From Clostridia bacterium (GTDB lineage: Bacteria; Bacillota; Clostridia; Christensenellales; Aristaeellaceae), in the NCBI GenBank assembly GCA_017936375.1, contig JAGBFR010000020.1:104244-168243 (forward strand): a DNA stretch of 64,000 bases. Direction: 5' to 3'. Shown here piece after piece: positions 23,667-28,504 of the stretch. The number at the start of each line of letters is the position of its first letter. The first letter of the stretch is position 1. A program made the position numbers and the translations under genes. Under the pieces are notes generated by a model, which worked only from the letters and a program-made list of their open reading frames with translations, ran no database searches and was not told the DNA's origin.

Positions 23667-23917
23667 CCCAGAGCACGGCCAGAAGAAAGAAGAAGCTCTC
23701 ATTCGAAGAGGGCATGGAGCAGCTCGAGGCGCTTACGCAGCGTCTTGGAAATGGCGGGCTCTCTGTGGATGAGTCGATGAAGCTGTATGAAGAAGGCGTT
23801 GCGCTGAGCAGACAGCTCGAGCAGATTCTTGCGGAACATCGGAAAAAGCTGGAAATGATCGATCCCGAAACCGGTGAGATTACATCTTTTGAGGAGAACG
23901 AAAATGAATTATCCTGA
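23663..23917 (+). CDS. xseB: Exodeoxyribonuclease VII small subunit
   Basis: 84 residues with 'LSFEEGMEQLEALTQRLGNG' and 'LSVDESMKLYEEGVAL', the XseB helical-hairpin signature. Several copies wrap the XseA coiled coil. It overlaps both xseA (4 bases) and ispA (14 bases). Confidence 0.95.
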   Translation: MTQSTARRKKKLSFEEGMEQLEALTQRLGNGGLSVDESMKLYEEGVALSRQLEQILAEHRKKLEMIDPETGEITSFEENENELS

Positions 23918-24818
23918 GCAATACAGCCTGTATGTAGATTTGGTTGAAAAGACGCTTGAGCGCCTGCTGCCGGAGCAGGAGGATCTCTGCCCGAAGGAGA
24001 CTGGCGTGATTCCTGCTCATCTTTGTGAGAGCATGCGCTACAGTCTGCTCGCGGGCGGCAAGCGTGTGCGTCCTGTGCTGCTGCTGGCGGCGTGCGATAT
24101 GCTTGCCGGCAGCACGGAGCAGGGCGAGGTCAGCGCAGCGGCGCTGGAGATGATTCATACCTATTCGCTGATTCATGACGACCTACCGGGCATGGACGAT
24201 GACGATTATCGCCGGGGCAGACTGACCAATCACAAGGTCTACGGTGTGGGTCATGCCATTCTGGCGGGCGACGGTCTGCTCAATTATGCGTATGAATGCA
24301 TGTTGGCCGACGCGCTGCGCTGGAAGGATAATCTTGAGAATCATGTAAAGGCTGCTCAGGCGATTGCCAACAGGAGCGGCGTGGCCGGCATGATTGCGGG
24401 CCAGAGCCTGGATCTGCTCAGCGAACATATGGAACCGGATGCGCAGCGCCTTGGCTACATCCATATGCACAAGACGGCGGATCTGCTCACGGCGCCTCTG
24501 ATCGCCGCCGCGTATCTCTGCGGTGCGGATGAGGAGAAGATGCAGGCGCTTTCGCGCTTTGGCGCATGCGTGGGTCTCGCCTTCCAGATTGACGACGATC
24601 TGCTGGATATTGAGGGCGATGCGGCGCAGCTTGGAAAACAGACCGGTATGGACGCACAGCGGGGCAAGATGACATGGCCGTCGCTGGTTGGCGTCGATGC
24701 GGCAAAGGCGCGCTCCCGCGAGCTTTGGGATGAGGCGCTTGCAGCGCTTGATGTGTTCGGTGATGCCGCGTGGTTCATGCGCGGCTTTGCGCAGCAGCTG
24801 CGTGAGCGCAAGAAATAA
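23904..24818 (+). CDS. ispA: Polyprenyl (farnesyl/geranyl) diphosphate synthase
   Basis: 304 residues from ATG 23904. First aspartate-rich motif 'HDDLPGMDDDD' (about 91-101) and second 'QIDDDLLDIEGD' (about 227-238) bind Mg-diphosphate; 'GGKRVRPVLL' binds isopentenyl diphosphate. It condenses IPP with allylic diphosphates to farnesyl or geranylgeranyl diphosphate. It forms one isoprenoid unit with dxs at 26627, with a PAP2-like gene and the OLE RNA between them. Confidence 0.93.
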   Translation: MNYPEQYSLYVDLVEKTLERLLPEQEDLCPKETGVIPAHLCESMRYSLLAGGKRVRPVLLLAACDMLAGSTEQGEVSAAALEMIHTYSLIHDDLPGMDDDDYRRGRLTNHKVYGVGHAILAGDGLLNYAYECMLADALRWKDNLENHVKAAQAIANRSGVAGMIAGQSLDLLSEHMEPDAQRLGYIHMHKTADLLTAPLIAAAYLCGADEEKMQALSRFGACVGLAFQIDDDLLDIEGDAAQLGKQTGMDAQRGKMTWPSLVGVDAAKARSRELWDEALAALDVFGDAAWFMRGFAQQLRERKK

Positions 24819-24839
24819 TGCATGTATGGAGGAATGTGC

Positions 24840-25286
24840 ATGAGCATATTGCTTGACATTTTCAGCAATCGGGCGATTCTCGCTGCAGCGGCGGCGTGGG
24901 CGACTGCACAGATTCTGAAGGTGATCCTGACGCTGATCGTCAGCAGAAAGATCGATTACAGCCGTATGGTGGGCTCCGGCGGCATGCCGAGCTCCCATTC
25001 GGCGATGGTCTGCGCGCTGGTGACAGCGATCGGCTTCAGGGAGGGATTCACGTCCTCCATCTTTGCGCTGGCGCTCGGCTTTGCCTGCGTGGTGATGTAT
25101 GATGCGGCGGGCGTGCGCCGCTCGACGGGCAAGAATGCAGCCGTGATCAATCATCTGCTGGACGGTCTTGTCGGCAATGGCTTCGTCTTTGACGAAGAGC
25201 GCCTGCAGGAGCTTGTCGGCCATACCCCTGTCCAGGTCTGCGCCGGCGCGCTGCTGGGCATTCTGATCGGTACGCTGATCGGGTGA
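24840..25286 (+). CDS. Divergent PAP2-family (DUF212, YuiD-like) membrane protein
   Basis: 148 residues from ATG 24840 (GGAGGA 6 bases upstream). Four or so hydrophobic segments and the motifs 'SGGMPSSHSAMVCAL' and 'YDAAGVRRSTGKNAAVIN' match DUF212, a diverged acid-phosphatase/lipid-phosphatase fold. A role on polyprenyl or phosphatidyl phosphates would suit the neighbouring isoprenoid genes, but this is inference. The OLE RNA promoter lies in the 70 bases after its stop. Confidence 0.85.
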   Translation: MSILLDIFSNRAILAAAAAWATAQILKVILTLIVSRKIDYSRMVGSGGMPSSHSAMVCALVTAIGFREGFTSSIFALALGFACVVMYDAAGVRRSTGKNAAVINHLLDGLVGNGFVFDEERLQELVGHTPVQVCAGALLGILIGTLIG

Positions 25287-25323
25287 TCGGCTGACCAGTT
25301 TGGGCTTCTTCACAAGGGAACAC

Positions 25324-25352
25324 TTGCGGGAGCTTGACAGCTGTGGTATAAT
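25324..25352 (+). promoter_or_regulatory. Promoter of the OLE RNA
   Basis: TTGCGG at 25324-25329, 17-base spacer, and a consensus TATAAT at 25347-25352. A TTGACA at 25334 is too close to this -10 to be its -35. Transcription should start near 25359. Confidence 0.65.
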
Positions 25353-25358
25353 CGTCAT

Positions 25359-25960
25359 CAGGTGGTGCAGTATTCTAGTCAGCAGAGTTTCTTCTGAAGA
25401 CGGGGCTAAAAATCCGTTAAAGGGCATATCGATGAAGTTCCTGGCAGCGGCTGCTGACGCCCAGTCGGGGGTCGTTGCTGGGAGTAAGAATTATGGGCGG
25501 CCGTCAATGGCATGATGGAGTTCGACCCATTTTTCGTGGAGGCATGACGGTCTTCCGTCATGAAAACCTGCATGGTGGTACAAAGTCTGCCTGCAGTGTA
25601 GCCTGCCTTGAGTGGTTGTGGCGGATCATGGAACAACGCGCGGTGACCAAAAGCGAAGGAAACCGCGGCGATCGCTGTGTGAAACCAGGGCTGCAAAAGA
25701 GGCTAGGAAGTTACCGACGCTGCCGAGGAAAGCTCCTAGACTGTCGATGAGGATATAGCAGAGATTACAGTGTGGACTCAGTGGTAATTCGGTCACGCGT
25801 GCGGAAACGGCGCGAAGCATGCTTTCAAGGGAAACCGCTCCTATGGCGACAGGGAGTAGCATGCGGGGAAATCCTACCGAACCTATGCCGCAAGGTTTAT
25901 TTGTTATATCACCACCTATCTTTTGACAATCTGCCCACGCTGTTTACGTGGGCTTTTTTC
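25359..25960 (+). ncRNA. ole: OLE RNA (ornate, large, extremophilic)
   Basis: A ~600-base stretch without a credible gene, bounded by a promoter and a strong terminator. It has strong internal structure: a perfect 8-bp hairpin CATGACGG-TCTT-CCGTCATG at 25543-25562, and a 7-bp pair GCATGCT (25817-25823) with AGCATGC (25858-25864) enclosing a CTCC/GGAG helix. Size and context match the known OLE RNA, which in Bacillus halodurans and many Clostridia lies between ispA and dxs next to the gene for its protein partner OapA. OLE forms a membrane ribonucleoprotein linked to ethanol, cold and Mg2+ tolerance. Identification is by synteny, size and structure; I could not align it to the covariance model. 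The ends are estimated. Confidence 0.85.
25933..25959 (+). terminator. Terminator of the OLE RNA
   Basis: GCCCACG and CGTGGGC form a 7-bp stem with a 7-base loop, followed by six T residues. It sits only 18 bases before the oapA start, so oapA needs read-through or a processed longer transcript. Confidence 0.88.
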
Positions 25961-25977
25961 AAATTGGAGTGTAATCT

Positions 25978-26598
25978 GTGAGTAAAAAGGAAAAATCAAA
26001 GCACAGTCAACAGCGATGGGTGCTGACGGTAGTGATGCTGTCCTTTGTGCTGTCCATCGTGATGTCGTTTGTGACAAGCATGTTCGTGGAATCGGCCGGC
26101 CTCTTTGTCGCGCTGATGGCGTTGATTGTGCTGGTTCTTCTTGGTATCATCACCGACGTGATCGGTACGGCCGTCACCTCTGCCGATGAGCAGCCGTTTA
26201 TTGCGATGGCCTCCAAGAGAATCCCGGGCGCAAAGCAGGCGCTCAGGCTCATCCGCATGGCGGAGAAGGTTTCCAGCCTGCTCAATGACGTCGTGGGCGA
26301 TATTGTCGGCATCATTTCGGGCTCCGCGGGCGCGGTTATCGCCGCTTCGCTGGCTGCGCTTGGTCTTCGCGCGGCGCTGGCGTCCATGCTGACGACGGCG
26401 TTCACCTCTGCCTTTATGATCGGCGGCAAGGCGTATGGCAAGGGCATTGCCATCAAGTACAGCTCCCGCATTGTGCTGACTGTGGGCAGGATCATGGCGG
26501 TCTTTGATCGCAAGAAGCGCGGCAGGAAAAAGCCTGCAAAGGCGGAAAAGGCTGCGTCAAAGAGCGCAGAAAGAAAGAATGGAAGAGAGAAAGCGTAA
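25978..26598 (+). CDS. oapA: OLE-associated membrane protein OapA
   Basis: 206 residues from GTG 25978 with GGAG 8 bases upstream. Hydrophobic helices lie at about 14-35, 42-64 and 104-148, with a Lys/Arg-rich C-terminal tail (about 178-206). 'DVIGTAVTSADEQPFIAMASKRIPGAKQAL' recalls the DUF21/CNNM membrane domain, which is the known relationship of OapA. In Bacillus halodurans OapA binds OLE RNA with 2:1 stoichiometry and holds it at the membrane; the basic tail is a plausible RNA contact. Position directly after the ole terminator and before dxs supports the call. Confidence 0.85.
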   Translation: MSKKEKSKHSQQRWVLTVVMLSFVLSIVMSFVTSMFVESAGLFVALMALIVLVLLGIITDVIGTAVTSADEQPFIAMASKRIPGAKQALRLIRMAEKVSSLLNDVVGDIVGIISGSAGAVIAASLAALGLRAALASMLTTAFTSAFMIGGKAYGKGIAIKYSSRIVLTVGRIMAVFDRKKRGRKKPAKAEKAASKSAERKNGREKA

Positions 26599-26626: not shown

Positions 26627-28504
26627 GTGTCCCGACTTTCCGGGATCAGAGGACCTGCCGACGTCAAGAAGCTGACGACGGAGGAATGCGGCGAACTGGC
26701 CAAAGAGATCCGTCAGACGATCATTGACACCGTATCCCGGCAGGGCGGCCATCTTGCATCGAATCTGGGCGACGTGGAGCTGACGATTGCGCTTCATCGC
26801 GTATTCGACAGTCCGAAGGACAAGCTCATCTTCGATGTGGGACACCAGATCTATACCCATAAGCTCCTCACCGGACGGCAGGAGTTGTTTTCCACGCTCA
26901 GATCCTATCAGGGCATGAGCGGCTTTCCGTGCAGGGCGGAGAGCGAACATGATCACTTTGATACAGGTCATTCGTCCACGGCGATCTCGATGGCGCTGGG
27001 CCTTGCCCGCGCGCGGGATCTTCAGGGAGAGGACTATTATGTCGTGGCCGTCGTGGGCGACGGCGCGCTGACCGGCGGCATGTGCTATGAGGCGATGAAC
27101 GACGCCGGAAGCGGTCAGGGACGGCTGATCGTGATCCTCAACGACAATGAGATGTCGATCTCCAAAAACGTCGGCGCGCTGTCCAATTACTTCAAGCATC
27201 TTCGCGCCAGCGCGTCCTGGTACGGGAATAAAAAGCGCATCCGCAGGGATCTGGAGAGGATTCCGCTGATCGGCAAGCCCGCTGCAAGACTGATCGAGAA
27301 GATGAAGGACATGGTCAAGTCCGTCGTGACGGATGGTGCGATGTTCGAGGCGCTTGGCTTCAGGTATCTTGGGCCGTTCGACGGTCACAACATCGAGGAG
27401 CTGACCCATGTGCTGGAGGAGGCCAAGAAGGTCACAGATATGCCGCTTCTGATCCATGTGATCACGAAGAAGGGGCATGGCTATGACCTCGCCGAGCGCC
27501 AGCCGGAGAAATTCCACGGCGTCGCGCCCTTCCGCGTGGAGAATGGCCTCAAACGCAACCAGTCCGGCAAGGAGAGTGCAGCGCAGGCTGCGGGCAAGGA
27601 GCTCGTTGCCATGGCGGCGGAGGATCCGCGAATTGTCGCCGTGACCGCTGCGATGACGGGAGGCACAGGCCTCACGGATTTTGCGTCCTTCTACCCGGAC
27701 CGCTTCTTTGACGTCGGCATTGCCGAGCAGCATGCCGTGAGCATGGCGGCGGGAATGGCCCGGGCGGGTATGAAGCCGTATTTTGCGGTCTATGCGACCT
27801 TCCTGCAGCGCGCATATGACCAGATCGTGCACGACGTCTGTCTGCAGAATCTGCCGGTGTGCATCCTTTCGGATCATGCGGGCCTTGTGGGCGACGATGG
27901 AAAGACGCATCATGGCGTGCTGGGCGTGCCGATGCTGCTGAGCATTCCGAATCTGACGCTGCTCGTCCCCAGGGATGTACAGCAGATCCGCTCCGCGGTG
28001 CGCGCCTCTGCGTCCGTCGATGGGCCGTGCGTGCTGCAGTATCCCAAGGATGGGATTGAGCCGTATGTGCCGCAGGAGCAGCAGACTGAATTTGTCGTCG
28101 GCCGCTGGCAGCAGCTGGCCGAAGGCGGAGACTGCTCGCTTCTTGCCTATGGAAGGATGACGAAGCATGCCCTGGAGGCGGCTGCCATCTTACGAGAAAA
28201 GGGGATCGGCGCCGAGGTGATCGACTGTTCGTCCCTGCGGCCGATGGATGAGGCCTGCCTTGAACGCTTGTTTGCAGAGGGAAGGAAGCTCATCGTCATC
28301 GAAGAAGGCGAGATGATCGGCGGTTTCGGCGCGGAGATCGCGCGTCTATGCGCCCAGAGAAGGGCTGCGCAGCCGCTTTGCATCATGGGAACGCCGAACA
28401 GATTCATCACACACGGCTCAGTCAGCCAGCTCCTTGAGGAGTGCGGACTGATGCCGGAGCAGATTGCCGCGCGCGTCGAGACGGCGCTGGCTGGCAATGT
28501 CTGA
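26627..28504 (+). CDS. dxs: 1-deoxy-D-xylulose-5-phosphate synthase
   Basis: 625 residues from GTG 26627, chosen because AAGGAGG is 8 bases upstream; the longer frame from 26504 would overlap oapA. Thiamine-diphosphate motif 'VGDGALTGGMCYEAMNDAG', 'GHQIYTHKLLTGR' near the N-terminus and transketolase-like 'VGIAEQHAVSMAAGMA' are present. It makes DXP from pyruvate and glyceraldehyde 3-phosphate, the first step of the MEP isoprenoid pathway. It heads the run dxs-tlyA-nadK-argR-recN. Confidence 0.95.
   Translation: MSRLSGIRGPADVKKLTTEECGELAKEIRQTIIDTVSRQGGHLASNLGDVELTIALHRVFDSPKDKLIFDVGHQIYTHKLLTGRQELFSTLRSYQGMSGFPCRAESEHDHFDTGHSSTAISMALGLARARDLQGEDYYVVAVVGDGALTGGMCYEAMNDAGSGQGRLIVILNDNEMSISKNVGALSNYFKHLRASASWYGNKKRIRRDLERIPLIGKPAARLIEKMKDMVKSVVTDGAMFEALGFRYLGPFDGHNIEELTHVLEEAKKVTDMPLLIHVITKKGHGYDLAERQPEKFHGVAPFRVENGLKRNQSGKESAAQAAGKELVAMAAEDPRIVAVTAAMTGGTGLTDFASFYPDRFFDVGIAEQHAVSMAAGMARAGMKPYFAVYATFLQRAYDQIVHDVCLQNLPVCILSDHAGLVGDDGKTHHGVLGVPMLLSIPNLTLLVPRDVQQIRSAVRASASVDGPCVLQYPKDGIEPYVPQEQQTEFVVGRWQQLAEGGDCSLLAYGRMTKHALEAAAILREKGIGAEVIDCSSLRPMDEACLERLFAEGRKLIVIEEGEMIGGFGAEIARLCAQRRAAQPLCIMGTPNRFITHGSVSQLLEECGLMPEQIAARVETALAGNV

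Follow-up and report, generated by a model that had tools for sequence, protein, structure and literature searches.

Few bacterial noncoding RNAs are as large or as poorly understood as OLE RNA, whose biochemical function is not established. Hallmarks of the class include an OapB site in P12.2/P13, high abundance of the RNA at the membrane, and an OapA dimer that binds it. In cryo-EM models, the P4 loop is a dimer contact, the P5.1 loop kisses P6.1, and the P9 loop kisses its own copy (PMC12265935). A CCUCC sequence in P6, shown in Halalkalibacterium halodurans, is an anti-Shine-Dalgarno mimic and the bS21 site (PMC12054373). According to a further source, OLE RNAs of variants 1 and 2 are found in the TANB77 and RF39 clades, CNNM proteins are known distant relatives of the protein partner OapA, and the DxxxD motif is a signature of OapA that CNNM domains lack; OLE and MpfA are anticorrelated across Bacillota, and it is suggested that OLE may always be accompanied by OapA and OapA by OLE, with exceptions that may be misses (PMC11332333).

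The locus described here adds another ole-oapA locus to this class. It lies in a 64-kb stretch of DNA that was analyzed as a whole (the window), from an assembly of 2.85 Mb that is 81% complete. The 14 nearest named loci by OapA homology (L037-L050; 67-83% identity) served as close relatives. Their metagenome labels include deer rectum, goat rectum, and buffalo cecum, and L050 is Candidatus Ventricola gallistercoris (NCBI places Ventricola in Clostridia); we infer that the host of the window is a gut bacterium. OLE was located just upstream of OapA in 18 of the 19 named loci fetched by OapA homology, with the RNA cut by the locus end in L041 and no OLE upstream in L053.

The OLE RNA and its transcription signals

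The RNA and the signals around it comprise the following features.

25324..25329, + strand: -35-like hexamer TTGCGG, 17 nt before the -10 (read from the sequence and aligned with close relatives)
25344..25352, + strand: extended -10 element TGGTATAAT (alignment with close relatives)
25346..25931, + strand: OLE RNA gene, as delimited by the Rfam match, which begins within the promoter
25406..25415, + strand: A-rich P4 loop CUAAAAAUCC (helix assigned by eye)
25459..25463, + strand: P5.1 loop GCCCA, putative kissing partner of P6.1 (assigned by eye)
25505..25514, + strand: P6.1 hairpin CAAUGGCAUG (assigned by eye)
25645..25659, + strand: P9 tip, with a self-complementary core of merely GC (assigned by eye)
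25933..25959, + strand: intrinsic terminator GCCCACG-loop-CGTGGGC-TTTTTT between ole and oapA (scan and close-relative alignment)

The OLE model (RF01071; Rfam 15, cmscan) matched the forward strand of the window at 25346-25931 with 456.5 bits (E = 8.7e-131; gathering score 50) and aligned over all model positions (1-616 of 616). No other Rfam family reached its gathering score anywhere in the 64-kb window. The match was 586 nt long, with 46 intervening bases before the oapA start, and its score was just under those of the 13 untruncated close-relative loci (457.7 to 474.9 bits). The stretch folded at -218 kcal/mol, compared with a mean of -191.5 kcal/mol for 100 dinucleotide shuffles (z = -3.64), none of which folded as well. 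The earlier note had recognized a structured stretch without a credible gene, had read it together with the following gene as OLE RNA and OapA, and had named the OLE model on 25300-26000 as a first check. The full-model match bears out this reading for the RNA, whereas OapA is backed by co-occurrence, position, the DxxxD motif, and a weak resemblance to CNNM proteins; that the locus is OLE RNA with OapA is virtually certain.

The sequence motifs of the dimer contact loops P4, P5.1, and P6.1 appeared intact, and the helix taken as P7 was a short hairpin. A candidate OapC k-turn may be present: an ATCGATGAAG strand was seen, but the joining region after P5 is one base short of the consensus. The palindrome of the P9 loop was 2 nt long (GC). 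Among 36 OLE RNAs compared (6 unparsed, a few genomes present twice), and counted with no shuffle control, P9 palindromes of at least 4 nt were found in 3 of 13 close relatives, and palindromes of 4 to 8 nt in all 16 parsed sequences outside that group. The letters of the latter varied (GGGCCC, GGATCC, GTGCAC, CCTAGG), as those of a self-kissing loop should. The P9 kissing contact may be weak across the whole close-relative group. The CCUCC mimic was absent from P6 of the window RNA and occurred in 4 of the 36 RNAs examined (a few genomes counted twice). Because P6 lacks CCUCC and the P9 loop is barely self-complementary, these two published contacts of the complex (the bS21 site and P9 kissing) may not hold in the species of the window; the former is a feature of H. 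halodurans and the latter of the published structures, and neither is a criterion of the Rfam family.

TATAAT was exact in the window and in all 13 untruncated close-relative loci, the -35-like hexamer was mostly TTGC in the close relatives without being invariant, and the other upstream DNA was poorly conserved. A consensus sigma-70 scan did not list the ole promoter and showed no excess (one site found, elsewhere; 1.0 expected), so the promoter call is based on conservation. The promoter proposed in the earlier note was thus upheld as a conserved -10 element but not as a textbook sigma-70 promoter. Because the first bases of the OLE match coincide with the -10, the start of the RNA was placed downstream, and transcription probably begins near 25358-25360. 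In the spacer, CTTGACA (25333-25339) was found in 13 of the 14 sequences (window plus close relatives), being absent in L048; it ends 7 nt ahead of the -10, too close for a -35, and is a possible regulator site.

The terminator that had been noted earlier was recovered by the scan at 25933-25959, although overall the scan gave no clear excess (3 found, 2.0 expected), and its stem GCCCACG/CGTGGGC recurred in all 13 untruncated close-relative loci. In L002 the stem was changed and still paired. In L042 (2691-2955), a 96-bp unit present in 2.8 tandem copies separated the OLE RNA from the terminator.

OapA, its neighbors, and the other partners

The genes around the RNA, and the parts of OapA discussed below, are as follows.

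23874..24818, + strand: ispA-type polyprenyl synthetase gene, start not fixed (Pfam polyprenyl_synt)
24822..25286, + strand: DUF212 (divergent PAP2) gene upstream of ole (Pfam, E = 9.9e-50)
25978..26598, + strand: oapA, 206 aa, GTG start (reading frame, homology, DxxxD)
26194..26220, + strand: OapA residues 73-81 (PFIAMASKR), with P73, M77, and basic 80-81 typical of OLE-associated OapA
26287..26301, + strand: OapA DxxxD motif, residues 104-108 (DVVGD; D104-VVG-D108; alignments)
26627..28504, + strand: dxs, start chosen by eye, longest frame from 26504 (Pfam)

The GTG-started protein with a basic tail was found as the earlier note had described it, its PAP2-like gene proved to be a member of the Divergent PAP2 family (DUF212), and Pfam confirmed dxs downstream. 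The polyprenyl synthetase gene upstream of DUF212 is presumably ispA.

Neither Pfam nor NCBIfam listed an OapA model for the 206-aa protein, so its identity was tested by other routes; nothing was above cut-off in Pfam, NCBIfam, or PDB sequence searches. The best Pfam match was CNNM (PF01595; 19.3 bits, E = 0.00096, under the cut-off of 28.4), and no CBS or CorC match was found in Pfam. As to the four transmembrane helices expected of an OapA, a mediocre AlphaFold2 model built from 19 sequences was all-helical (pLDDT 71, pTM 0.54). Its best Foldseek matches were CNNM/CorB structures (7m1t, probability 0.98, E = 0.13; 7m1u, probability 0.95, E = 0.16), and none reached E = 0.001; the predicted fold weakly resembles that of CNNM proteins. 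Both aspartates of DxxxD were invariant in all 87 aligned OapA rows.

The order ispA-DUF212-ole-oapA-dxs was also found in other families (L102 in f17, L104 in f2, and L107, L109, and L115 in f23). Because the gene order is common to other families, horizontal arrival of ole-oapA in the family is thought less likely than retention; the OapA tree does not decide between the two. In two OLE-less loci (L125, L127) from the GTDB genus of the OLE-bearing genome G025, dxs followed DUF212 after ~170 bp with no oapA match, and in L136 the gap was ~20 bp.

The genome of the window contains an L7Ae-type protein gene, OapC (best PDB match YbxF, 1.7e-15), beside a gene recognized by eye as rpsL (L085). 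OapB was identified in relatives as a KOW protein adjoining infA, usually after a map-like gene (best PDB match OLE-associated protein B, 4.7e-8). It was missing from the 81%-complete assembly of the window (G000) and from G071. Since infA was missing in both as well, this absence is indistinguishable from an assembly gap.

OapB identity was compared in 17 genomes, with part of adk, infA, and rpsM as control proteins. Within the genus of the window, OapB was 92% identical between G032 and G096 at 88% control identity, whereas that of the OLE-less congener G116 (L072 vs. L070 and L071) reached 41% with control identity unchanged. Mean OapB identity inside the family was 0.64 in OLE-bearing pairs (6 pairs, control 0.78), 0.37 in mixed pairs (40 pairs, control 0.70), and 0.39 in OLE-less pairs (45 pairs, control 0.68). 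Pairs from different families showed a smaller gap: 0.43 in OLE-bearing pairs (15 pairs, control 0.65) and 0.37 in mixed pairs (30 pairs, control 0.63). These pairs lack independence, and the marked contrast inside the genus comes from the single genome G116, which is 89% complete and has a DUF212 gene without ispA and dxs around it. These comparisons suggest that OapB has strongly diverged in this one OLE-less congener.

Distribution of OLE, OapA, and CNNM/MpfA genes

Of 120 genomes of the GTDB family of the window, 6 had OLE, and these were precisely the 6 with OapA. Among 200 genomes of the order, OLE was found in 100, an OapA homologue in 123, and both in 98 of the 125 genomes having either one. 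Two genomes had OLE only (G158 and G198, both f13); no OapA homologue was detected in them with the protein of the window as the query, and they may hold a divergent OapA that was missed. The remaining 25 had an OapA homologue only.

CNNM/MpfA genes were counted by the CNNM domain alone, not by the full MpfA architecture. In the family, the domain was above cut-off in 1 of 6 OLE-bearing and 105 of 114 OLE-less genomes (Fisher test, P = 5.9e-5, ignoring kinship), assuming that weak matches in G000, G007, G032, and G096, which are probably OapA itself, fall below the cut-off. Under the same assumption, a CNNM gene was found in none of the 4 sampled OLE-bearing genomes of the genus of the window (G096, G071, and G032 share this GTDB genus), and the OLE-less congener G116 has one (E = 8.5e-54). 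Across the order, CNNM matches with E below 1e-15 were found in 29 of 100 OLE-bearing genomes, 15 of the 25 with OapA only, and 68 of the 75 with neither. Strict exclusion was therefore rejected: 29 OLE-bearing genomes, including G025, carry both, so the replacement of one by the other is not strict. To the published anticorrelation, these data add the counts for the family and the contrast inside one genus.

In the 25 OapA-only genomes, a whole-genome rescan with a loose first look found no OLE at E up to 1, and a hidden OLE elsewhere in these genomes was rejected as an explanation, although such a rescan could miss a very divergent OLE and G215, G219, and G269 are 81 to 89% complete. The OapA loci of 21 of the 25 genomes were fetched (20, plus G303), and the 20 contained no OLE at E up to 0.01 in the Rfam search. 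Judged by eye, the OapA-like gene directly followed an ispA-like gene in f5 (10 genomes), f7 (2 genomes), and f24 (G249), and the next gene was dxs-like or tlyA-like. In f28 it was mostly beside a proS-like gene, and in L161 it followed xseA-xseB-like genes. Two f28 genomes (G169, G250) carried a second copy in addition to the OLE-side OapA. CNNM/MpfA was present in all 10 OapA-only genomes of f5 and in none of the 8 of f28; thus, exchange for MpfA is not the whole story. Comparative evidence from sequences suggests that OapA persists without OLE in lineages of the order. No description of such lineages was found in the accessible parts of PMC11332333, PMC12265935, PMC9723947, PMC12286853, PMC12054373, and PMC10898510.

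For a comparison of residues, 80 OLE-side loci and the window were offered, and 64 OLE-associated rows remained after 17 duplicates or rows without a usable match were dropped; L053, with no OLE in its locus, was excluded. Of the 23 OLE-free rows, OLE-less genomes supplied 21, and the other 2 (L166, L167) are paralogues found in genomes with OLE. In a tree of these 87 proteins, some of them long-branched, the OLE-free label needed 4 changes (4-5 in bootstrap trees). Residues D60, D104, D108, K151, and K155 were present in all 64 OLE-associated and all 23 OLE-free rows. By contrast, P73 was found in 62 of 64 vs. 2 of 23, M77 in 63 of 64 vs. 1 of 23, a basic residue at 80 in 64 of 64 vs. 8 of 23, and a basic residue at 81 in 64 of 64 vs. 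10 of 23. Smaller differences were A85 (55 of 64 vs. 6 of 23), S99 (53 of 64 vs. 3 of 23), and F176 (57 of 64 vs. 6 of 23). Because the rows are related, these counts overstate independence. The motif is stated by position, since the strict pattern PFx[AGS]M fits just 37 of the 64 OLE-associated rows. In f24, both proteins keep P73 and one also M77, as recent losses would. L144-L163, L166, L167, and L170 are OapA-like and OLE-free, with DxxxD kept and P73, M77, and the basic pair absent in most of them.

P73, M77, and the basic pair 80-81 are candidates for an OLE-reading face; general divergence of freed proteins could also have eroded such residues. We tentatively propose, at somewhat less than even odds, that OapA can live without OLE in lineages from which the RNA has disappeared or in which a duplicate of the protein has left it behind. 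The core would be kept and the face at P73, M77, and 80-81 mostly lost; OapA would read OLE through that face, and the RNA would serve a small CNNM-like cation transporter as its regulatory domain, removable or in some lineages exchanged for MpfA.

Proposed mechanism and comparison with known systems

By analogy with H. halodurans, we give a probability of about 0.93 to the reading as a whole: an ole-oapA locus whose RNA forms a membrane ribonucleoprotein with OapA, OapB, and OapC, most likely acting in ion handling under stress. Synthesis of the primary transcript of ~600 nt would start at a dedicated extended -10 promoter and end at a dedicated terminator. The RNA would then dimerise and dock on OapA, a small CNNM-like membrane protein, and with OapB and OapC would make up the particle, which most likely would adjust divalent-cation (Mg2+/Mn2+) handling under stress. 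Transcription, dimerisation, membrane docking, ion handling, and the stress role are all carried over from that species. The RNA would be the regulatory part, as the CBS and CorC domains are in MpfA; that it is the regulatory domain of a cation transporter has, in our estimation, an even chance.

The position of ole directly before oapA, and their joint presence in all 6 OLE-bearing genomes among the 120 of the family, would also fit a mere long cis-acting leader that controls oapA expression and has no role in trans. We consider this unlikely, because the RNA ends ahead of the oapA start at a terminator stem shared by the window and the 13 untruncated loci, and because the published RNA acts as part of a membrane particle (PMC12265935). 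Four genomes (G131, G138, G148, G179) have ole and oapA on different contigs, which also argues against a leader, although broken assemblies could explain it. A decayed relic without function is more improbable still. The 2-nt P9 palindrome and the rarity of OLE in the family (6 of 120) could be taken as decay, but the RNA matches the full model with a score near the range of its close relatives, and the -10, the terminator, and the OapA core residues are intact; since weak palindromes are common among close relatives, the P9 loop is no sign of decay in the window alone. Scarcely credible is that these bases belong to a different class of large RNA or to a split protein gene: there are overlapping open reading frames of 69 to 96 aa, and an opposite-strand frame of 414 aa covers the first 82 bases, but the longest frame on the oapA strand is 91 aa, and OLE, matched over its full model, is the sole Rfam family at gathering scores. 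The membrane ribonucleoprotein is thus preferred.

The main interest of the locus is the comparisons it allows. OLE presence, OLE absence, and MpfA-type genes are found together in a single family and, it appears, within one genus of it, which permits comparison of near relatives. Relatives that keep OapA without OLE can be used to probe the role of the RNA, and the residues missing from them would turn this into a residue-level test of what OLE does to OapA.

Like the OLE locus of H. halodurans, that of the window matches the model over its full length and has an RNA of the same size, oapA immediately downstream, isoprenoid gene neighbors, the DxxxD motif, and the P4, P5.1, and P6.1 loop motifs. 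It differs in the terminator between ole and oapA, the short P7 hairpin, the weak P9 palindrome, and the lack of the CCUCC mimic in P6, and in its host lineage, which has gut metagenome-assembled genomes rather than extremophiles among its nearest named relatives. Variant 1 OLE RNAs have a shortened P7, as does the window; unlike variants 1 and 2, the RNA of the window keeps P8 and P9 and aligns to the whole model, and it is therefore nearer to the full-length type. The CNNM membrane domain of the MpfA (CNNM-CorC) transporters is weakly resembled by OapA of the window, whereas OapA has no CBS or CorC match, is under the Pfam CNNM cut-off, and has DxxxD; genomes of the family mostly carry either CNNM/MpfA or OLE-OapA.
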